Shown one piece after another: positions 47,848 to 59,448 of a stretch of DNA of 64,000 nucleotides. Position numbers and translations under genes: made by a program. The notes beneath the pieces were generated by a model. That model made no database searches, had not been told where the DNA came from, and saw only the letters and a list, made by a program, of their open reading frames with translations. Position 1 is the stretch's first letter. The number at the start of each line of letters is the position of its first letter. Source of the stretch: Syntrophorhabdaceae bacterium (GTDB lineage Bacteria > Desulfobacterota > Syntrophorhabdia > Syntrophorhabdales > Syntrophorhabdaceae); NCBI GenBank assembly GCA_035541755.1, contig DATKMQ010000093.1, positions 38,884-102,883 of the forward strand. Direction: 5' to 3'.

Positions 47848-48996
47848 TTGTTGAACGGGAACACGGAAGATCCTCTTGAAATATCGATTCACGGCGTTCG
47901 ATCGCTTCTTAAGGAGAAGACGGCCGGCGTGCATCTTGTTGACATTCGGGAGCATGAAGAGCTTGCTGTCGGCTTCATTGACACATCTGTATCCATCCCG
48001 AACAGCGCGTTACGAGAAACCGTGCAACACGTTTTGCCCGATAAGAATGCGCCTCTCATACTGTATTGCGCCTCCGGGGCACGTTCCCTTCGCGCCGCCA
48101 CAGCGCTGAAAGGGATGGGCTATCAAGATGTGCGGTCCATGGCCGGAGGATTCAACGCCTGGGTTGAAGCGGGCTTCGATATCAAAACAAAGGGCGTGAT
48201 GACAACCGATCAGATCAAGCGCTATAGCCGACAACTCTTAATGCCTGAAATCGGCGAACAGGGCCAGTTAAGGTTGCTCCGCTCACGGGTGCTCGTGGTG
48301 GGCGCCGGCGGATTGGGGAGCCCCGTCGCTTTCTATCTCGCCGCCGCGGGGGTAGGAACCCTGGGAATCGTCGACTTTGACAGGGTCGATCTTTCCAATC
48401 TGCACAGGCAGATACTTTACGACACGAAGGATGTGGGACAACCGAAGACCGCGTCAGCCAGACGGACGATCCACCGGATAAACCCCGATATATCGGTCAT
48501 CGCCTATCAGGAACGGTTCACAGCGGATCGAGCTTTGGAAATTATCGCCCCCTACGATATCGTTGTGGACGGATCGGATAATTTTGGCACCAAGTTTCTC
48601 GCCAACGACGCGGCCTTCTTTGCGGGAAAACCATTCGTCTTCGGAGGCGCTATAAGATTTGAAGGACAGGCGAGCGTCTTTTTCCCAAAGGCAGGCGGAC
48701 CGTGCCTGCGCTGTATGATGCCTGAGATTCCGGCGCCGGAGACTGCGCCGTCATGAAGCGAAGTGGGCGTGCTCGGGGTCGTTCCCGGGCAGATCGGCCT
48801 GGTTCAGGCCGCTGAAGTCATCAAGCTGATCTTGAAAAAAGGCAGATCTCTCACCGGTCGTTTCCTGATCTACGATTTAATGGAGGCTGATTTCAGGACT
48901 TTTACGGTGGAAAGAAACCCGGTCTGTCCTCTCTGTGGGGGTAAGCCAACGATCAGAGACCTGACAGGCGACTACCAGGGCGTGTGCAGCGATTAA
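47848..48996 (+). CDS. moeB: Rhodanese-MoeB/ThiF fusion, candidate selenoprotein (Sec at the E1 catalytic position)
   Basis: One gene of 382 codons read through a UGA at 48754-48756 (codon 303). Residues 1-115 are a rhodanese domain with the active Cys 74 in LYCASGARS. From about 118 an E1-like adenylating domain begins, with the ATP motif GAGGLGSP at 152-159, the R-Q-I-L-Y contact, and zinc ligands in CLRCMMPE and CPLCGG. In MoeB and ThiF the motif is (S)C-x-x-A/V-G-V-L-G-x-x-P/V-G; here the reading is PS-UGA-SEVGVLGVVPG, so UGA replaces the catalytic Cys exactly. Both halves stay in one frame. A SECIS-like hairpin follows. The protein should activate the C-terminus of MoaD, ThiS or another sulfur carrier. 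The TTG start has a GGGGG site; selenocysteine-specific machinery is not in this window. A pseudogene or base error is the alternative. Confidence 0.82.
48754..48791 (+). promoter_or_regulatory. Candidate bacterial SECIS element
   Basis: After the in-frame UGA (48754-48756), TGCTCGGG (48770-48777) pairs with CCCGGGCA (48784-48791): eight base pairs with one U-G. The six-base apical loop GTCGTT starts with G. The loop begins 21 bases after UGA, within the 16-37 base range of bacterial SECIS elements, and the loop has the required early G. Confidence 0.75.
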
Positions 48997-49002
48997 TAGA
49001 GT

Positions 49003-49476
49003 TCAACGGCCAACATCCTCTTTACCCGTCATCTCCTCTACGTCTATCCTGACAACCGCCGTGAGATCGAGCTTCTCATCGGGGATTTTCCCGTAGCCGC
49101 CCTCGGGCTGGTATTTCTCCATAAGGCCTTTAAGCGCACGGATCTTTTCCTGCCTGTCTTCCAGGATAAAAGCCCTCCCTTTCATGATGACGCTGCGATA
49201 TCGGTACGCGGCCTTGCAGGGGCTACCGCTCGTCTTTACATACGAGATAGGAAAGTCCACCTCGAAGCAAACCCGGTTATCTTGCTTGATGTCTTCTATC
49301 TTCTCTCCTTCTTGCGCGGAGTGTATGTAGATCTTCCCTTCGTCATAAAGGAAATTGAGGGGCTTTATCACGGGATAGCCGTCGTGTCGGTTCGTGGCGA
49401 GTCGTCCCACATAGGCCTCTGACAGTAGCCTGATTAATATGTTCTTGTCTTTGATCTCCTTTCTTGCCACTCGCAT
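49003..49476 (-). CDS. Pyridoxamine 5'-phosphate oxidase-family flavin protein
   Basis: A 157-residue split-barrel FMN-binding protein. AYVGRLATNRHDGYPVIKPLNF starts the barrel, GKIYIHSAQEGEKIEDIKQDNRVCFEVD continues it, and SVIMKGRAFI-like strands follow. This family (nitroimidazole resistance/PNPOx-like) holds FMN, heme or F420, and the precise reaction is unknown. It is convergent with the candidate selenoprotein gene, only six bases apart. An AGGGAGGG ribosome site precedes the ATG. Confidence 0.85.
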   Translation of the reverse strand: MRVARKEIKDKNILIRLLSEAYVGRLATNRHDGYPVIKPLNFLYDEGKIYIHSAQEGEKIEDIKQDNRVCFEVDFPISYVKTSGSPCKAAYRYRSVIMKGRAFILEDRQEKIRALKGLMEKYQPEGGYGKIPDEKLDLTAVVRIDVEEMTGKEDVGR

Positions 49477-51133: not shown

Positions 51134-52318
51134 CTATGATGCAGTGGCGCATACGTTACTTTCCACGTTCCAGTAAGGCGACATAGATCGGAGCCGCTCG
51201 ATAACGGGCGGCAGCTTTTCAATGACAAAGTCGATCTCCTCCTCGGTATTGTAAACACTGAGGCTGAATCTCACCGACCCGTGGGCCATGGTATAGGGTA
51301 CACCCATGGCGCGCAGTACGTGGGAAGGCTGAAGTGATCCGGACGTGCAGGCCGAACCGGAGGACGCGCAGATGCCATGGCCGTCCATGAGCAGAAGGAT
51401 GCTTTCCCCCTCAATGAACTCGAAGCTGATATTTGTGGTATTGGGAAGACGTAGTGCCCCTCCCCCGTTTACCTTACAGTTTGAGATGCGCTTGAGAAGT
51501 TCCTTTTCAAGCTTGTCCCGAAGCTGTCTCACTCGGGTATTTTCCTGTTTCATGTTACTTGAAGCCAGTTCGCATGCCTTGCCCAGGGCTACGATGCTCG
51601 GGGTGTTTTCCGTGCCGCCCCTGCGACCCTTCTCCTGATGGCCTCCGATAAGAAAAGAGGAAAATTTCGTACCCTTCCGAAGATAGAGCACGCCTATGCC
51701 TTTGGGGGCATGAAGCTTATGCCCCGATAACGAGAGCATATCAATGCTATTCTCTTTCATATTGATGGGTACCTTGCCCACGGCCTGTACTGCGTCTGTA
51801 TGAAAAAGGGCACCCCGTTCCCGGGCGAACTGAGCCGCTTCTTCAACAGGGAAGATAACGCCCGTTTCATTATTTGCCCACATGAGGCTCACCACAGCCG
51901 TATCCGCTGAAAGGCTTTTCTTATACTGGTCCATGTCCAGGTTCCCGTCGGCATCGACCTCCAGGGTCGTCACCCGGTAGTTGCTCTCGGCGAGATGCTC
52001 GCAAAGGGCCTTCACAGCGGGGTGCTCCACACGGCTCGTAATGATGTGCCGTTTGTCCGGTTTCACAGAGAGGGCCGAACGAATGGCGGTATTGTCGCTT
52101 TCTGTGCCACAGCTCGTAAAGATGATCTCGTCCGGGCTAGCCCCGATCAAGGCCGCCACCTGTGCGCGGGCTTGGGCAAGCTTTTTGGCTACCTGCCCCC
52201 CGAAACTGTGCATACTCGATGGATTTCCGTAGAATTCGGAAAAATATGGTGTCATCTCGGCGAGCACCTCGGGGGCGACCCGCGTCGTAGCGTTATTATC
52301 GAGGTATATGGTTTTCAT
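51134..52318 (-). CDS. nifS: Cysteine desulfurase NifS/IscS type
   Basis: PLP enzyme of 394 residues that takes sulfur from cysteine for iron-sulfur clusters. MKTIYLDNNATTRVAPEVL starts the family fold. PLP Lys is in LSLSGHKLHAPKGIG, and the persulfide Cys in GICASSGSACTSGS. The frame extends to 52411 but the ATG at 52318 overlaps the nifU stop by ATGA and has a GGAGG site, so I use it. It is in one run with iscR and nifU. Confidence 0.95.
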   Translation of the reverse strand: MKTIYLDNNATTRVAPEVLAEMTPYFSEFYGNPSSMHSFGGQVAKKLAQARAQVAALIGASPDEIIFTSCGTESDNTAIRSALSVKPDKRHIITSRVEHPAVKALCEHLAESNYRVTTLEVDADGNLDMDQYKKSLSADTAVVSLMWANNETGVIFPVEEAAQFARERGALFHTDAVQAVGKVPINMKENSIDMLSLSGHKLHAPKGIGVLYLRKGTKFSSFLIGGHQEKGRRGGTENTPSIVALGKACELASSNMKQENTRVRQLRDKLEKELLKRISNCKVNGGGALRLPNTTNISFEFIEGESILLLMDGHGICASSGSACTSGSLQPSHVLRAMGVPYTMAHGSVRFSLSVYNTEEEIDFVIEKLPPVIERLRSMSPYWNVESNVCATAS

Positions 52319-53151
52319 TGCGAAACCTCCTCCACAACGAGTTCGGGTGAAACAAGCTCGCGGAGCTTGGTCTCGACAAAGCCTTTGAGCGTGAGTTGTG
52401 ACGCCTGGCAAACTGCACAGGCACCCCGCGTGGCCACAAGAACCCTGTTGCCAACGATATCGACGAGATCGATATCGCCGCCGTCGTGTCGTAATGACGG
52501 ACGTATTTCTCTGTCTATGATTTCTTCGATCATCCGTATCTTCTTCAAGTTCGTAAGCCTCGGCTTTGCCGATTCTAAAGCTTCCTGCTCGGGTTGCGCA
52601 TATATCCTGTCGATGAGCTCCTGAATCTTCTCATGACACTTCTTGCAGCCGCCGCCCGCTTTGGTGTAATTCGTAACTTCATCTACCGTTGTCAGGTGGT
52701 TCTCTCTTACGGCTCGCTCGATCTCCTTGTCGGTGACGCCGAAGCACTCGCACACAATCTCCCCTTCTTTCTTGGGTGACTCGGAGCCTCTATAGTGTTC
52801 GATGGCCTTTTCCAGGGCTTCCTGTCCCAGGACGGAGCAGTGCATCTTCTCGGCAGGCAGGCCGCCAAGATAGTCGGCAATGTCCTGGTTGGTGATCTTC
52901 ATGGCATCCTCTATGGTCATGCCCTTGATCATTTCCGTCATGGCCGAAGCCGATGCGATGGCGCTTGCACATCCGAAGGTCTTGAATTTGGCATCGACTA
53001 TCTTTTTGTTTTCGTCCAGCTTAAAAGTGAGTTTTAAGGCGTCTCCACAGGCGATAGATCCTACCTCGGCCACGCCATCGGGGTTCTCAATCTCCCCTAC
53101 GTTCCGGGGATTGAGAAAATGTTCTTTCACTTTATCGGTGTATTCCCACAT
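52315..53151 (-). CDS. nifU: Iron-sulfur scaffold protein NifU
   Basis: A 278-residue scaffold with all three NifU parts: an IscU-like N-terminal domain (about 1-125, with Cys in SIACGDAL, FGCASAIAS and KMHCSVLG), a central BFD-type [2Fe-2S] domain (about 130-185; CECFGVTDKEIERAV, then GGGCKKCHEKI), and a C-terminal Nfu domain with CAVCQASQLTL. Full-length NifU is known from nitrogen fixers but also occurs as the general Fe-S scaffold of epsilon- and deltaproteobacteria. No nif structural genes are seen here, so housekeeping assembly is likely. Confidence 0.95.
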   Translation of the reverse strand: MWEYTDKVKEHFLNPRNVGEIENPDGVAEVGSIACGDALKLTFKLDENKKIVDAKFKTFGCASAIASASAMTEMIKGMTIEDAMKITNQDIADYLGGLPAEKMHCSVLGQEALEKAIEHYRGSESPKKEGEIVCECFGVTDKEIERAVRENHLTTVDEVTNYTKAGGGCKKCHEKIQELIDRIYAQPEQEALESAKPRLTNLKKIRMIEEIIDREIRPSLRHDGGDIDLVDIVGNRVLVATRGACAVCQASQLTLKGFVETKLRELVSPELVVEEVSQ

Positions 53152-53287: not shown

Positions 53288-53734
53288 TCAAATATAATAC
53301 ATGGGGTTCTCTGTCCCTATTTTATGACTCTGCGCATTCACGATGTCTTGAAGGGTATATTGTGACAGGGTCTCGGCGATTCTGTTGTTTAAGACTGTCC
53401 AGACGTCCCTGGCCGAGCAAATTGCTGATTTTTCGCAGAAGCCTGGTTTTCCCACGCAATCTACCACATTGATCGGGCCTTCAAGTATCTCGATGATCTC
53501 GCTCAACTTTATTTCGTCCGCCGGTTTGTTGAGGAGATACCCGCCCCTCCTTCCCCTGACAGTCTTGACGAGACCTGATTTGTGGAGCCGACCGGCAATC
53601 TGCTCGAGATACTTTTCCGATATGCCCTGGCGTCGTGCGATGTCCGAAAGCAAGACCGGAGCCCCCTTGTTGCCATGGGTTGACAGATCGATCAAAGCCC
53701 TGAGCCCGTACCTGCCCTTGGTGGATATCTTCAT
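53288..53734 (-). CDS. iscR: Rrf2 family regulator, IscR-like
   Basis: A 148-residue winged helix regulator. KISTKGRYGLRALIDLSTHG and QGISEKYLEQIAGRLHKSGLVKTVRGRRGGYLL are standard Rrf2 segments. Three cysteines in VDCVGKPGFCEKSAICSAR have the spacing of the IscR [2Fe-2S] site. It precedes nifU by 136 bases and has its own perfect promoter, so it should sense cluster status and control nifUS. Confidence 0.93.
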   Translation of the reverse strand: MKISTKGRYGLRALIDLSTHGNKGAPVLLSDIARRQGISEKYLEQIAGRLHKSGLVKTVRGRRGGYLLNKPADEIKLSEIIEILEGPINVVDCVGKPGFCEKSAICSARDVWTVLNNRIAETLSQYTLQDIVNAQSHKIGTENPMYYI

Positions 53735-54060: not shown

Positions 54061-54291
54061 TTACAGGCATTCTACGGTGTAGGCTTCCGCTCTTCCATTC
54101 AACACTTTTTCAAGCAGATCGCCGTGTTCAGGTAAAAATCTTATACAGACACCGCAATCAGAGCTTATCTTTCTCGGCACCGGGATGATCTTATGCGGCA
54201 CTTGTGCTTCTTTCAAGATACGCTCGGCAGAAATCACATGGCTCACCGACTTGAAAAGCGCTACAAGATACTCTATTTGAGGTTCCGTCAT
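54061..54291 (-). CDS. DUF3343, Se/S-carrier-like protein
   Basis: A 76-residue protein of the DUF3343 family, proposed as a small selenium or sulfur carrier and often found beside YedF and SelD. A single domain with beta-alpha-beta layout; the key part is SSDCGVCIRFLPEH with the C-G-x-C motif. It overlaps yedF by ATGA and is the last gene of the six-gene operon. Function is family-level inference. Confidence 0.85.
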   Translation of the reverse strand: MTEPQIEYLVALFKSVSHVISAERILKEAQVPHKIIPVPRKISSDCGVCIRFLPEHGDLLEKVLNGRAEAYTVECL

Positions 54292-54905
54292 GGCTGAACG
54301 ATCCGTCCCGCCCCGGAAAGAGTGACCGCGATATCATACATATTTGAGACCTCACCGGCTGCAATTTTTCCGGTAAGGTTGTAATAGTTGACGCATGTGC
54401 CGCACACAAGCATTTTGACTCCCTTGTCTTCAAGCTTCTTCAGATCGTCCAGAAAATCCGACCCTTCCGCCGCGAGCTTCGCACCGGAGTTGTAGAATAT
54501 CATCACGTCCGGACCGGCCTTAAGTTCGGTCGCCGTATGAATAAAGGCTTTCATGAGGGTAACACCGAGTTCGTCGCTTCCCTTGCCCATGGTGTCGGCG
54601 GCAATAACAAACACAGTGGGGCCGAAGGCTGGAAGGGAAACATCGGCCGGGCAGGAAAGATAGTCCGGCGCGGCTTCATCTGTGGCTCTGCCGCCCTCCT
54701 TCTTCAGGTCTACCCTGAATATGCCTCCCGACTCGCGGGCAACTTCAACGGAACAGCCGGCGCCCGCAGCCAACCGTTTGATATTCTCCACCGCAGTCGC
54801 ATTGTCCACGAGCACGGTAATTTCATTTGATGTCTCGAGGGCCTTTTTCGCAAGAATCACCGGCTCAGGGCAGGCGAGTCCTTTTGCATTGATTGTCTCT
54901 GACAT
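54288..54905 (-). CDS. yedF: Selenium metabolism protein YedF (TusA-DsrE fusion)
   Basis: A 205-residue fusion. The N-terminal TusA/SirA domain has the active Cys in LACPEPVILAKKAL. The C-terminal DsrE-like domain (about 95-205) has VFVIAADTMGKGSDELG, MIFYNSGAKLAAEGSDFLDD and VCGTCVNYY, a second redox or persulfide cysteine pair. YedF proteins occur with SelD and with selenium-dependent molybdenum hydroxylases. The ATG at 54905 has AAGGAGG; the longer frame to 54965 overlaps the desulfurase gene and is not used. Confidence 0.9.
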   Translation of the reverse strand: MSETINAKGLACPEPVILAKKALETSNEITVLVDNATAVENIKRLAAGAGCSVEVARESGGIFRVDLKKEGGRATDEAAPDYLSCPADVSLPAFGPTVFVIAADTMGKGSDELGVTLMKAFIHTATELKAGPDVMIFYNSGAKLAAEGSDFLDDLKKLEDKGVKMLVCGTCVNYYNLTGKIAAGEVSNMYDIAVTLSGAGRIVQP

Positions 54906-54933
54906 ATAATCCTCCTTGTGGCGGTGCATAACT

Positions 54934-56103
54934 TCATTTTCTATTCTCCCATGAAAGCGTTTCAATGGCTTTTATGGCCGTGTTAATTTCCTCTTCCGTG
55001 GTGAACAGGCCGAGACTTAAACGCACTGTCCCTTGAGGAAACGTGCCAATGGTACGGTGCGCCGCCGGAGCGCAGTGCAGCCCCGGCCTCGACATGATAT
55101 TGAAGCGTTCATCTAGATGGAGCGAGACATCCGATGGGCTCATCGACTCGACTGTAAATGATACGATACCAATCCGTTGCGCCGGATCCGTACCCCCATA
55201 TATCTTGACTCCCTTGATCGAACGGATCCCGTCCGTAAGAAGGCCTGTCAGAGCGATCTCCCTCGCGCGTATCAAATCCACGCCACGGTCGGCTACGAAC
55301 CGGACGCCCGCGCCAAGCCCTGCTATACCGATAGTGTTCGGCGTGCCGGATTCAAAACGGTCGGGCATAAATTCGGGCTGTTCTTCAAACTCGGATCCGC
55401 TGCCCGTGCCTCCATATTCGAGGGGACTCACCATTTTTTGGAGCCCCCCGCGGATATAGAATCCGCCTGTGCCCTGCGGTCCGTTTAATGATTTGTGTCC
55501 GGTAAAGACCAGTATATCGATGTCGTCGCGCATAACATGTATCGGAATGCTGCCCGCGGTCTGGGAGGCATCAACACATAGAATCGTATCGTTTGCGTGC
55601 GCTATTTTCGCAATATCAGCCACAGGTGTAATGGCTCCGGTGACGTTAGACGCGTGGGTAACTACGACCATCCTGGTATTCTTCTTCATCGCGGCTTTAA
55701 TATCGTCAGGATCAATATAGCCGGCGTCAGAGCATCTCGTTACGCTTAGTTCCAACCCCTGCCGCTCAAGGGCGCGCAAGGGCCTCATGACGGAATTATG
55801 TTCCATACCGGACGTAACCACATGGTCTTTCAGCAGCAGGCTGCCTAAGAGTATCGTGTTCAAAGCCTCTGTCGCGTTCCTCGCGAAGACCACCCTCAGA
55901 GGATCATCTGCGTTAAGTAAAGAGGCTACGCCCTCACGGGCATCAAAGACAATGCGGGCCGCATCCATTGAAAGCCTGTGACCCGAGCGTCCGGGATTTG
56001 CTCCCACATTCTCGTTGAAATCGATCATGGCCTTGATCACTGGATGTGGCTTGGGCCATGATGTGGCCGCGTTATCTAAGTAAATCAAGCCGTCTTTACT
56101 CAT
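54934..56103 (-). CDS. Cysteine desulfurase / selenocysteine lyase-like (SufS/CsdB type)
   Basis: A 389-residue group II PLP enzyme. The PLP Lys is in LVFTGHKSLNGPQGTGG, the active Cys in SRPGLHCAPAAHRT, plus the family opening MSKDGLIYLDNAATSWPKP. Versions next to yedF and DUF3343 are thought to release selenium (or sulfur) from selenocysteine or cysteine. It lies 76 bases after the 386-residue double-cubane-type reductase and 28 before yedF, so it belongs to the same operon. This is the second desulfurase in 5 kb. Confidence 0.92.
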   Translation of the reverse strand: MSKDGLIYLDNAATSWPKPHPVIKAMIDFNENVGANPGRSGHRLSMDAARIVFDAREGVASLLNADDPLRVVFARNATEALNTILLGSLLLKDHVVTSGMEHNSVMRPLRALERQGLELSVTRCSDAGYIDPDDIKAAMKKNTRMVVVTHASNVTGAITPVADIAKIAHANDTILCVDASQTAGSIPIHVMRDDIDILVFTGHKSLNGPQGTGGFYIRGGLQKMVSPLEYGGTGSGSEFEEQPEFMPDRFESGTPNTIGIAGLGAGVRFVADRGVDLIRAREIALTGLLTDGIRSIKGVKIYGGTDPAQRIGIVSFTVESMSPSDVSLHLDERFNIMSRPGLHCAPAAHRTIGTFPQGTVRLSLGLFTTEEEINTAIKAIETLSWENRK

Positions 56104-56179: not shown

Positions 56180-57340
56180 TCAACAGGACTCCAGCAACGC
56201 CTCGACGCGTGTGCGTATCTGGCCCACGTCGCTCTGTGAAAAGTCGGTCACAATCTTGAGAAACGGCAGACCGTGGTTCTTCTGCACGTGTTCTCCCACT
56301 TTGTAAGATTCGATGTTGTACGAATGACAGGCCTGAAGTACAACGTCGACGACAGCGTCCGGTTTAAATCTTTCGATGATACGGGTGATCTCGGTTAAGC
56401 GCCGCATATTCGGCGTCATGCACGAACAGGGTATCTTGAGAGACCGTGCGGCGATCGCCCTCATAGGGTCCCCGGTCTTCTCCTCGATGTCTGTCGCAAA
56501 GGGCTTAAACCCTGAACAGGAATCGAGGGCGACAATGGTCCCTCCTCCCTCCTCGATGATGTTGAAGACTTTTTGAGCATCCCCCCCAACAGGACAGCCC
56601 GTTACGAGTATCCGCGGAGCCCCGCTCGGCCCGTAGGTATATCCGGCAGCCTTCCGTTCCTCAAGTTTTCTTTTTGCTTCAATCAGTACAGGCTCCATCT
56701 CTTTCCCTGTTACTCCATGAGACAGAAAACACAGATCGTACAAGTCCCGCCAGCCCACGACAGGAGGGTTAAGGGCGGCATAGTCGATGACCGTTCGCAT
56801 CATCGCGTTCTTGTGGTTGGTATCTTTGATGGCGGCTTCGATCTCATCATCAGTCGCGTACGCATTGAAAGTGCGTTCAAGAAATTTCTGCAACTTCCGT
56901 ATCATGATGGTCCAGTTATTCAGGGCCTCCTCCTCGTCCGGCAACTGGGGCAAGTCCATGATATGGGTGGGCTTGCGTTCTCCGATGAGTTCGAACATTT
57001 TCTTCTTACCGTCGCAGGTGGTCTCCCCTATCACCGCGTCGGATATTCCGTAAAACGGGCAGGTATCAGTGATCACGAAACCAAAACTCGATTTTATGAG
57101 AGGACACAGGTTGACAGGAAGCACAGCTTCCGCAGCCTCAATGGTCGCGTTGGAAAAGGCGCAGAGCGATGCCGGCACGATACCCATAGCGCGGATCAGT
57201 TCTGTCGGGGCGTAACCGCAATAGATCCCGGCGATCTTTTTGCCTTCTTCGCGTTTCGCCTGCAGGTGGGCAAGCACCCTTTTTGTAGGTGGCTCACCCG
57301 TGAATTCGTCCTGGATAAGCGGTGCGGGCGTTTCGTTCAT
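56180..57340 (-). CDS. Double-cubane-type 2-hydroxyacyl-CoA dehydratase family reductase, 386 residues
   Basis: Anaerobic reductase of the HgdB/BcrC (2-hydroxyacyl-CoA dehydratase D-component) family. Cys-containing motifs in order: GIYCGYAPTELIRAMG, LPVNLCPLIKSSFGF, TDTCPFYGISDAV, GETTCDGKKKMFE, VTGCPVGGDAQ, ALDSCSGFKPF, IPCSCMTPNMRRL and LQACHSYNIESYKV. These give many candidate cluster ligands, as in the [Fe8S9] double-cubane proteins, which with an ASKHA activator drive low-potential reductions. The activator gene lies 36 bases upstream. Whether it acts on small molecules or on an acyl-CoA is unknown. Confidence 0.85.
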   Translation of the reverse strand: MNETPAPLIQDEFTGEPPTKRVLAHLQAKREEGKKIAGIYCGYAPTELIRAMGIVPASLCAFSNATIEAAEAVLPVNLCPLIKSSFGFVITDTCPFYGISDAVIGETTCDGKKKMFELIGERKPTHIMDLPQLPDEEEALNNWTIMIRKLQKFLERTFNAYATDDEIEAAIKDTNHKNAMMRTVIDYAALNPPVVGWRDLYDLCFLSHGVTGKEMEPVLIEAKRKLEERKAAGYTYGPSGAPRILVTGCPVGGDAQKVFNIIEEGGGTIVALDSCSGFKPFATDIEEKTGDPMRAIAARSLKIPCSCMTPNMRRLTEITRIIERFKPDAVVDVVLQACHSYNIESYKVGEHVQKNHGLPFLKIVTDFSQSDVGQIRTRVEALLESC

Positions 57341-57376
57341 ATCGACACCTCCATGTCTCTTTTGTTACGACTCGTA

Positions 57377-58156
57377 TTACGTGTTTCCACCCGAGGCCCG
57401 TTCATCCGGCCGCGATGCACCGTACAGCGCCGCTCCAAGGGCGCCCACGATTTGAGGATCTTGAGGTACAAATATCTCTCTACCCGTCTCCCGGGCGAGA
57501 AGCGTCCTCACGCAGGCATTGAGTGCCACTCCTCCGGCAAAGAATACCTCGCCCGTGGGGGCCACGCGATTCAAAATCGAGACCGAGCGACTTACAATTG
57601 CTTTATGGATGCCCAGCGCCACCTCTTCACGCCGGGATCCCTGATTGGTCAAGGAAATTACCTCTGATTCGGCAAAGACGGTACACGTGCTGTTAATCTT
57701 CTCGGCCTTTTCGGTGGACAGTGCAGATTCGGCAAATTCACCGAGGGCATAGCCGAGCGCGTGAGCCATGATCTCAAGAAAGCGGCCCGTTCCGGCGGCA
57801 CACTTATCGTTCATTTCGAATTTACTCATGTCCCCGGTTTCGTGAAGCGCGATGGCCTTCGTGTCCTGGCCTCCGATATCGAGGATAGCACGGCAGTCAG
57901 CCGATAACCGACGCGCCCCCAGGGCGAAGGCCTTGATTTCGCTTATGACCGGGCAGTCAAATCTGGTTTTGATCAAATGCCTGCCATACCCGGTGGCCAC
58001 GAGTCTGCCCGGATCAATATCCTGCATGAGAGCCGCTGCGGTTTCGAGGGGACTGTGCGATGAGTGTGCCTTGCGGGTAAGGACGATCTCGCCATCCTCC
58101 AATACAGCGAGCTTGACTGTGCGTGATCCTATGTCAATCCCCGATGTTCTCATCAC
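57377..58156 (-). CDS. ASKHA activator ATPase of the double-cubane reductases
   Basis: A 259-residue BadF/HgdC-type activator (archerase). MMRTSGIDIGSRTVKLAVLEDG is the ATPase phosphate 1 loop, ILDIGGQDTKAI the phosphate 2 loop and FFAGGVALNACV the adenosine motif. Two Cys, in NDKCAAGTGRFLE and NSTCTVFAESEV, hold the [4Fe-4S] cluster shared by the dimer. It hydrolyses ATP to push an electron into its partner. It overlaps the 425-residue reductase upstream by four bases and lies before the 386-residue one, so a single activator may serve both. Confidence 0.95.
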   Translation of the reverse strand: MMRTSGIDIGSRTVKLAVLEDGEIVLTRKAHSSHSPLETAAALMQDIDPGRLVATGYGRHLIKTRFDCPVISEIKAFALGARRLSADCRAILDIGGQDTKAIALHETGDMSKFEMNDKCAAGTGRFLEIMAHALGYALGEFAESALSTEKAEKINSTCTVFAESEVISLTNQGSRREEVALGIHKAIVSRSVSILNRVAPTGEVFFAGGVALNACVRTLLARETGREIFVPQDPQIVGALGAALYGASRPDERASGGNT

Positions 58157-59430
58157 TCATTTATCCGTTCCACAAACGCCTCTATACGCGTTTTCAGCTG
58201 ACCCACGTCCTCCTGGCTGTAATCAGTCTCCAGTCGCAGGGTTGGGACGCCCGCTTTTTCCAGTTCGGCTTCAGCGGGCATACTTTCTACGATATACGGA
58301 TGGCAGAACTGAAGACTGTAATGAATCACTCCCTGTGCGTTGAGTCTTCCCGTCATTTCTTTCACATATTCGACCCGTGAAGGGTTGGGCGTGAAGACAG
58401 CGCAGTCAATATTGAAATACCGGTCCACGACGTTTTCAAGGAGTTCTTCTACCGTGCTGCCCCTGTCTTCCGTGAGCCAACGCGAGCCGCGTTCTCCAAC
58501 GCAGGATTCTTCCCCCACGATGACCGCACCGCCTGTCTCCACGAGCATAGGCACTTTCCAGTTGGGGACCGCCATAGGACATCCCGATATGATCACCCTG
58601 GGCGTGCCTGTATCGGCCACCCCTATCCCGTTTTGCACGCGCTCTTCCAGTTCGTCGCAGAGCTTGTTCACAGACTCGGTAAAACGCACAGGATCATCGT
58701 AGAAGAAAATCTGATTTATGAGCAGCGCGTCAAGCCCTGAAATGGGAGCAGGATCAGCTTTGCGTATCTCTGCAAGACGTTTTACCGCCTTGCGTTTTGC
58801 ATTGGTAATCTCAATTCCTTTTTTTAATGATTCGACGGTAATCTTTTTGCCGCTTGCAGCCTCGAGTTTTTGAGCAAATTTCCTGTATTCCTCTTTGAGC
58901 AGGGCCTTTCCCGCCTCACTCTTCATCTGCGGCAGATCTATGATATACAGATCGCTGACAAGCGGGCCGAGCACTTCGTACGCCTTTTTCTTGCCGTCGC
59001 ACGTGTTCTCCCCGACGACTACGTCGCATGCCTCCACGTAGGGACACACCTTTCCGAGCTTAAACCCGAAAGCAGATTTGATAAGGGAGCAGATATTTCT
59101 CGGAAGTACATTCTCGGCGCCTTCAAAATTAAACTCCGCGCCGGCGCATAATCCCACGGAGACCCCATCTACGGCAAGGATAAACTCTTCAGGAACAAAT
59201 ACGCAGTATGACCCGATGATCTTTCTTCCCTGCGCCTTCGCGTCAAGAAGCTCCTTTATGCGCAGGCCGTGCACCTCGCTCATGACGAAATCGAAATACT
59301 TCATCCCTTCGGGACGCTTCTTCTGGGACAGAAACACGTCCTGATAGGCGCTGCCAAGGACGGAAAGCAGGGCGTCGTGGGCCTTAAGATCAAGACCCAG
59401 GCTTGACCACATCTGTGTGTAATCTGACAT
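58153..59430 (-). CDS. Double-cubane-cluster-containing reductase, 425 residues
   Basis: First gene of the six-gene operon. Cys-motifs GSYCVFVPEEFILAVDG, LPRNICSLIKSAFGF, KVCPYVEACDVVVGENTCDGKK, ISGCPMAVPNWK, VGEESCVGERGSRW and LQFCHPYIVE resemble those of the 386-residue paralogue but differ in spacing; VVGEESC followed by a W/R pair is typical of the double-cubane proteins known to reduce small molecules such as acetylene or azide with ATP. The frame extends to a TTG at 59448 that lies upstream of its own ribosome site (CACAGGAGGTTTTTC), so the ATG at 59430 is the true start. Confidence 0.87.
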   Translation of the reverse strand: MSDYTQMWSSLGLDLKAHDALLSVLGSAYQDVFLSQKKRPEGMKYFDFVMSEVHGLRIKELLDAKAQGRKIIGSYCVFVPEEFILAVDGVSVGLCAGAEFNFEGAENVLPRNICSLIKSAFGFKLGKVCPYVEACDVVVGENTCDGKKKAYEVLGPLVSDLYIIDLPQMKSEAGKALLKEEYRKFAQKLEAASGKKITVESLKKGIEITNAKRKAVKRLAEIRKADPAPISGLDALLINQIFFYDDPVRFTESVNKLCDELEERVQNGIGVADTGTPRVIISGCPMAVPNWKVPMLVETGGAVIVGEESCVGERGSRWLTEDRGSTVEELLENVVDRYFNIDCAVFTPNPSRVEYVKEMTGRLNAQGVIHYSLQFCHPYIVESMPAEAELEKAGVPTLRLETDYSQEDVGQLKTRIEAFVERINE

Positions 59431-59448
59431 GAAAAACCTCCTGTGCAA

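Follow-up and report, generated by a model that had tools for sequence, protein, structure and literature searches.

A rhodanese-fused E1 enzyme with a predicted selenocysteine at its crossover loop in a Syntrophorhabdaceae genome and its relatives

The read-through gene and its surroundings

The stretch of Syntrophorhabdaceae DNA analyzed here (64,000 nucleotides; the window) contains on its forward strand a gene at 47848..48996 which, when read through a single TGA, encodes a predicted rhodanese-E1 selenoprotein of 382 residues. The frame starts at TTG 47848 or TTG 47851 and stops at TAA 48994-48996, and its sole internal stop is TGA 48754-48756 at codon 303, in the context PS-TGA-SEVGVLGVVPGQIG. 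The original prediction, that both halves lie in one frame and are split by this TGA alone, was confirmed as to coordinates, frame, and motif. An N-terminal rhodanese domain (residues 25-107, 47920..48168, + strand; Pfam PF00581, 62.6 bits, cut-off 22.2) is followed by an E1/ThiF adenylation domain (residues 126-361, 48223..48930, + strand; PF00899, 273.2 bits, cut-off 28.1), the match to which spans the TGA uninterrupted. The read-through protein scores 465.6 bits (cut-off 449) against NCBIfam NF006444, a model of rhodanese-MoeB fusions.

The GxGGxG loop and the two CxxC motifs of the E1/MoeB-ThiF class are all present, namely GAGGLG (residues 152-157, 48301..48318, + strand), a nucleotide-binding loop by homology, a first CxxC (Cys286 and Cys289, 48703..48714, + strand), and, 3' of the TGA, a second CxxC (Cys360 and Cys363, 48925..48936, + strand), each invariant in 25 aligned homologues. 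The TGC at 48067..48069 (+ strand) encodes Cys74. In the alignment this residue falls on the active-site position of rhodaneses (YCASGARS), and from the rhodanese motif we take it to be the active-site cysteine. Codon 303 (48754..48756, + strand; predicted Sec303) is aligned with the crossover-loop cysteine of E. coli MoeB (1jw9), E. coli ThiF (1zfn), and Chaetomium Uba4 (6yub), which places the TGA exactly on the E1 catalytic cysteine, as had been claimed. The Uba4 partner is taken as Cys202, from chain index 200 in the alignment and an inferred offset of 2.

An AlphaFold2 model of the read-through protein (25-row alignment) has a mean pLDDT of 89.8, and its nearest solved folds are those of ThiF, MoeB, and Uba4. 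Residues 301-310 are among the less confident regions (67), in keeping with a flexible loop. Two clusters of database proteins, P0002 (2 contigs, 302 aa) and P0003 (one 995-base contig, 275 aa), both stop at codon 303, and a sequencing error is disfavored because they stop at that same codon.

The gene is surrounded by iscS-nifU, thiamine, and selenium-trafficking genes. On the minus strand lie an IscS/NifS-like class V aminotransferase (51134..52411; PF00266, 312.9 bits), possibly a source of sulfane sulfur, a NifU-like Fe-S scaffold (52315..53151; PF01592, PF04324, PF01106), an Rrf2-family regulator (53288..53734; PF02082, 133.6 bits), a putative Se/S carrier protein (54061..54291; PF11823, 67.3 bits), the selenium-metabolism protein YedF (54288..54965; TIGR03527, 192.9 bits, cut-off 110), and a second class V aminotransferase, putatively of the cysteine desulfurase or selenocysteine lyase type (54934..56103; PF00266, 311.9 bits). 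No ubiquitin-like carrier (Ubl), JAMM, or CysM gene was found within 5 kb of the gene, and only the Rrf2 and IscS-like members of the carrier-cluster gene list are near it, both on the other strand.

The minus strand also encodes a Pyridoxamine-5-phosphate-oxidase-like protein (49003-49476) with weak likeness to NimABCDEF models, which is not called a resistance gene because its score is 86.3 versus a cut-off of 260. Three ORFs at 56180-59448 (minus strand) resemble, judged by eye alone, 2-hydroxyacyl-CoA dehydratase / benzoyl-CoA reductase subunits and their activator. Scans of the 64-kb window gave no tRNA with ARAGORN and no match with Rfam.

Recurrence of the TGA and its exchange with cysteine

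TGA occurs at codon 303 in 16 loci from 15 related genomes, the window's own included. Other related loci have Cys (n = 16) or Ser (L004 and L036) at this position, and the rest, distant ThiF homologues, have gaps or other residues there. The codon reads TGA, TGC, TGT, or AGT, and TAA or TAG in none of the relatives, which agrees with the original prediction. Between residues 6 and 350, the relatives' TGA loci contain only one further in-frame stop, a TGA at the rhodanese Cys (L015). When 395 genomes were drawn evenly across the phylum, the matches listed included 34 places spanning query residues <=30 to >=370, 16 with a TGA inside and 18 with none.

A scan of named genomes with a TGA-bearing motif returned at least 116 stretches, and all 116 of those listed are E1 genes with TGA at 303, comprising 115 distinct 72-nt sequences; some are the same records as loci of the relatives (e.g., L124 and L015). 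As the motif itself required TGA, the scan shows breadth and not the ratio of TGA to Cys. Record labels among the 116 matches listed cover about a dozen phyla: Poribacteria (n = 27), Rokuibacteriota (n = 21), Verrucomicrobiota (n = 19), Myxococcota (n = 7, all titled Deltaproteobacteria, which makes the label doubtful), Thermodesulfobacteriota (n = 6), Actinomycetota (n = 6), Planctomycetota (n = 5), Latescibacterota (n = 4), Methylomirabilota (n = 4), Tectimicrobiota (n = 3), Chloroflexota (n = 2), Gemmatimonadota (n = 1), and Nitrospinota (n = 1), with 10 unlabeled, 6 of them SAR324.

The rhodanese is N-terminal in 80 of the 116 matches listed, while 11 are cut by the end of the stretch and 25 have upstream room but no rhodanese. 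A downstream rhodanese match on the same strand and in frame was found in 21 of the 116, and since no stop intervenes in any of the 21, these are C-terminal fusions in the Uba4/MoeZ order. The view that a Sec-containing E1 fused to a rhodanese is unusual was therefore not upheld among the matches listed. Among the 80 N-terminal rhodaneses listed, 72 have Cys at position 74, 4 have Gly, 3 have TGA, and 1 has a gap. The genes with TGA at both codon 74 and codon 303 are L124 (= L015, G079; labeled Deltaproteobacteria), L076, and L168 (both Planctomycetota); they have no further in-frame stop in the aligned gene, and SelB is over cut-off in their genomes.

Some departures from this pattern were seen. 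Four loci from Latescibacterota and Gemmatimonadota (L056, L080, L096, and L142) have Gly at the rhodanese site and keep TGA at 303, and L056, L096, and L142 have an IscS-like gene within about 1 kb of the Sec E1 gene. Ala is found at both 74 and 303 in the rhodanese-E1 homologues P0022, P0027, P0028, and P0036, both catalytic sites being lost together. Two protein records have Gly at 74: P0014 with Cys at 303, and P0013 with Gly at 303 as well, perhaps from a TGA=Gly gene-caller table applied to a double-TGA gene.

A quick tree was built from E1 domains (102 rows, trait column masked; its finer branches are unsure). Sec versus the rest requires 12 changes on this tree, at least 7 of them forced by starred branches, and all three labels require 14 changes, compared with a shuffled mean of 44.3. 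Sec and Cys alternate on the tree, and the near relatives of the window protein have Sec (L003), Cys (P0004-P0007), or Ser (L004).

The Ser of L004 is encoded by AGT in a genome (G022) with SelB and tRNA-Sec over cut-off. Given this Ser in a gene closely related to that of the window, the residue may be dispensable there. P0008 likewise has Ser at 303, and P0017 shares the residues before that codon and terminates there.

The codons 3' of the TGA are under purifying selection. Between the window gene and L003, pN is 0.13 and pS 0.70 after the TGA, against 0.19 and 0.77 before it; in the seven pairs compared, the codons after the TGA have a pN of 0.02-0.21 and a pS of 0.10-0.78.

Selenocysteine machinery and the hairpin downstream of the TGA

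The source genome (G000; 3.85 Mb, 180 contigs, 95.8% complete) contains SelA (494.6 bits, cut-off 22.8) on the same contig as the window, SelB (377.6 bits, cut-off 242.25), SelD (373 bits, cut-off 125), and tRNA-Sec (76.3 bits, gathering 47). All components on which the original prediction depended are thus over cut-off; among 14 control genomes, the tRNA-Sec model was over cut-off in 5 and SelB in 2. The SelD gene (L214, C90:12310-13221) has a single in-frame TGA in the context GGG-TGA-ASKIGP, presumably SelD's own Sec site, and the G000 SelD is likely a selenoprotein itself.

SelB is over cut-off in 14 of the 15 TGA relatives, the exception being G008, and tRNA-Sec is not over cut-off in G031 and G043. 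Both are so common in the window's phylum (SelB in 128 and tRNA-Sec in 131 of 148 genomes) that co-occurrence there proves little, and a verrucomicrobial order was used instead. Forty genomes were picked from the 116 matches listed to spread over phyla; SelB is over cut-off in 37 of these and not in G437, G452, and G458, although for the last a partial match lies at the edge of a contig. Of 75 genomes drawn from the verrucomicrobial order to which G437 belongs, 16 have SelB over cut-off. It is over cut-off in 6 of 7 verrucomicrobial TGA genomes versus 16 of 74 others of the order (G437 left out of the latter; Fisher p 0.0013), and SelB thus tracks the TGA in this order.

A bSECIS-like hairpin is located at +14 to +35 after the TGA (48770..48791, + strand). 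Its minimum free energy (MFE) of -15.3 kcal/mol, against -7.9 expected, was reached in 0 of 300 recodings. Passages of PMC13188914 give as bSECIS rules an apical loop of 3-9 nt, a stem of 4-16 bp, a distance of 16-37 nt from the UGA, an MFE <= -7.5, and a G in the first two loop positions. Besides its low MFE, the window hairpin has a 9-bp stem, a 4-nt loop, and a spacing of 21-22 nt; its MFE loop, UCGU, is without the wanted G, which appears only when the terminal G-U pair is opened to give GUCGUU at a cost of 0.8 kcal/mol.

The consensus of the Sec genes pairs +14..+20 with +27..+33 around a loop at +21..+26, where the CGUGCU type dominates (85/125), positions +22 and +23 being G and U. At least 5 of these 7 family pairs are formed in 109 of 125 Sec genes versus 2 of 16 Cys genes. 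In a recoding test using synonymous codons drawn by each gene's own usage outside the hairpin, the 125 Sec genes had 5.85 of the 7 pairs versus 4.46 expected, and 25 Cys genes had 3.84 versus 4.10; the MFE was below the recoding expectation in 116 of the 125 Sec genes and 13 of the 25 Cys genes, with related and so not independent sequences among them. A bSECIS-like hairpin is thus favored in Sec genes and not in their Cys homologues. The signal is modest, with a single-gene p <0.05 in only 26 of 125 Sec genes, nearly as much pairing one column off register (0.797 vs 0.816), and no separation of Sec from Cys genes by whole-stretch MFE with pooled codon usage (p 0.22). Of the 7 family pairs, the window gene forms only 4, where 4.5 would be expected; its own hairpin is one column off register.

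A SECIS at the rhodanese TGA was also considered. L124 (= L015) has a hairpin there with the loop CGUGCU, the commonest at the E1 site; because L076 and L168 are without it, no SECIS is claimed at this position.

The Sec machinery, the recurrence of the TGA, and the exchange of Cys and Sec support the proposal that the in-frame UGA is a Sec codon. Likely, the UGA at codon 303 is read as selenocysteine, and the gene encodes one whole selenoprotein.

Proposed mechanism, alternatives, and known systems

The CysO/MoeZ-type set, in which a carrier, CysM, and JAMM lie beside the E1, is absent at the window copy and present in relatives. In relatives of family f10 and others, such as L179 (Syntrophaceae), an Rrf2 regulator is followed by a threonine-synthase-like PALP, a ThiS-NIL carrier, the Sec E1, a JAMM peptidase, a CysM-like synthase, and Thi4, and in the window's own family, several E1 genes lie behind Rrf2-metY-metX-metW. 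Within 5 kb of 138 Sec loci (duplicates included), the carrier (Ubl) was found at 19, JAMM at 17, CysM at 18, ThrC at 15, Rrf2 at 15, MetY at 8, MetX at 6, and MetW at 6. For the 40 Sec loci flanked on each side by 2.5 kb or more, the corresponding counts are 6, 6, 9, 5, 12, 5, 4, and 4. The majority of Sec loci have none of the carrier-cluster genes, a count that may overlook distant homologues in other phyla, the neighbor reference proteins being from Thermodesulfobacteriota and Chloroflexota. The Rrf2/thrC/Ubl/JAMM/cysM or metY-metX-metW clusters of the relatives suggest that carrier-borne sulfur is used for cysteine or homocysteine.

The ubiquitin-like carrier of L179 (4946-5461, - strand; ThiS, with the SAMP1 model over cut-off) carries a NIL domain at its C-terminal end, behind an internal GG, and it adjoins the JAMM peptidase, which might expose this GG. 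G000 encodes, on C148 and C140, two carriers whose last residues are GGG, and its best JAMM match in a genome-wide profile search is 21.9 bits (cut-off 25). An uninterrupted Cys paralogue (L034/L192, 49% identical) lies in a metY-metX-metW cluster of G000.

We consider it highly probable that the window gene encodes one selenoprotein, a rhodanese-fused E1 with Sec303 at its crossover loop, which would form an acyl-selenoester and, through the rhodanese Cys74 persulfide, a thiocarboxylated carrier. Uba4, as described in passages of PMC7527816, adenylates Urm1 and forms a thioester on Cys202, from which the carrier passes to the rhodanese persulfide as an acyl-disulfide and then becomes a thiocarboxylate. 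By analogy with Uba4 (PMC7527816), once UGA 48754-48756 is read as selenocysteine at the loop position, the E1 would adenylate a ubiquitin-like sulfur carrier at its C-terminal glycine and hold it as an acyl-selenoester on Sec303, which the Cys74 persulfide would attack. The thiocarboxylated carrier would then be released, and in the relatives' genomes, judging by the neighboring genes there, the thiocarboxylate may feed cysteine or homocysteine synthesis. Selenoesters are more reactive than thioesters, and selenolates are ionized at neutral pH. The swap to Sec would thus speed transfer or better survive oxidation.

More tentatively, and with chances somewhat below even, these proteins may form an E1 class that works through selenium with an acyl-selenoester carrier, making the protein thiocarboxylates from which anaerobes and many uncultured phyla would build cysteine or homocysteine. 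In the double-Sec L124, L076, and L168, the sulfur-donating residue of the rhodanese and the carrier-accepting residue of the E1 would then both be selenocysteine, giving a selenium-to-selenium relay.

A rather unlikely alternative is that Sec is inserted at the loop as a protective or redox residue, acting against self-conjugation or oxidation, and not as an acyl-selenoester carrier. Passages of PMC7527816 report that Cys202 of Uba4 is not needed for adenylation and binding and that its loss leads to more self-conjugation under oxidants, and the Ser at 303 in L004 and P0008 and the Ala at both sites in four homologues are consistent with a protective role. However, the same passages argue that the Cys202 thioester precedes thiocarboxylation, and most of the homologues seen carry Cys or Sec at position 303.

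It is improbable that the enzyme moves selenium and not sulfur, giving a selenocarboxylated carrier. Such a role would fit the set of YedF, Se/S carrier, and class V aminotransferase genes about 5 kb from the window gene and the TGA at the rhodanese site in three genomes, but the neighbor sets of the relatives consist of sulfur amino-acid genes, and the selenium genes near the window gene are encoded on the other strand and did not turn up beside the relatives.

Even less probable is a pseudogene, with the TGA as a plain nonsense mutation and a truncated protein of 302 residues as the sole product. This protein is present in databases, and the uninterrupted Cys paralogue in the met cluster would make a loss tolerable; yet the TGA recurs at the same codon in 16 loci from 15 relatives and in at least 116 motif stretches, the only other in-frame stop in the relatives' TGA loci (residues 6-350) is the TGA at the rhodanese Cys, and pN is far under pS 3' of the TGA. 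A reassigned code in which TGA simply stands for Gly or Trp has next to no chance, for while the protein record of P0013 shows Gly at positions 74 and 303 alike, which a TGA=Gly table would produce, G000 has all of the Sec machinery along with a SelD gene that itself carries a TGA, and the gene's only in-frame TGA falls on a position where homologues have Cys.

E1 enzymes for ubiquitin-like proteins depend on one nucleophilic cysteine, where nature appears repeatedly to swap sulfur for selenium. The Cys versions beside Sec on the tree are a ready-made test of the role of the loop residue, as the step sped by selenium (acyl transfer, persulfide exchange, or oxidation protection) should become apparent when matched Sec, Cys, and Ser forms of the enzyme are compared. 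Selenium supply would be tied to sulfur-carrier metabolism, and annotations which now split these genes in two would be corrected.

In the full-text literature searched (many subscription journals and preprints lie outside it), nothing was found on rhodanese-fused or double-Sec E1 selenoproteins, or on a Sec E1 in Rrf2/thrC/Ubl/JAMM/cysM or metY-metX-metW clusters. The rhodanese-MoeB fusions of NF006444 (PRK08762) share the N-terminal rhodanese and E1 with the window protein but have Cys at the loop, where the window protein has a predicted Sec. Uba4 / MOCS3 with Urm1 (6yub, 6yuc; passages of PMC7527816) also combines E1 and rhodanese, and its loop Cys202 aligns with Sec303 under the inferred offset of 2. 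It has Cys and not Sec, serves eukaryotic tRNA thiolation, and carries its rhodanese C-terminally, as do 21 of the 116 Sec loci among the matches listed, whereas that of the window protein is N-terminal.

In the mycobacterial MoeZR/CysO/CysM/Mec+ system, as described in passages of PMC3227635, the E1-rhodanese MoeZR sulfurates CysO, the carrier of CysM, CysM uses the sulfurated CysO, and the JAMM-type peptidase Mec+ frees cysteine. The same gene set lies beside relatives of the window gene; MoeZR, however, is a Cys enzyme, the relatives' carrier has a C-terminal NIL domain, and the window copy is without such neighbors. Rhodanese-family selenoproteins of UxxG and UxxS forms (PMC13188914) have Sec at the rhodanese site, as in L124, L076, and L168, but their fusion to a Sec E1 is not described in the passages retrieved from that paper.

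That MoeB-like selenoproteins occur in marine surveys, as stated in the original prediction, is borne out by the family of 11 sequences reported in 2005 (PMC1088965) and of 19 in 2008 (PMC2398784). They also appear, with MBT7809913.1, in lists excerpted from PMC9312934 and PMC13188914, and are not named in the excerpts of PMC1794560 and PMC8318568. Compared by description, the marine-survey proteins resemble the window protein in being MoeB/ThiF-type with a predicted Sec for Cys and a bacterial SECIS, but the survey passages describe no rhodanese domain, gene cluster, or function for them. This marine-survey group may correspond to the SAR324 and verrucomicrobial loci of the present scan. MoeB selenoproteins have been known since 2005, and the rhodanese-fused form is a variant of that kind.
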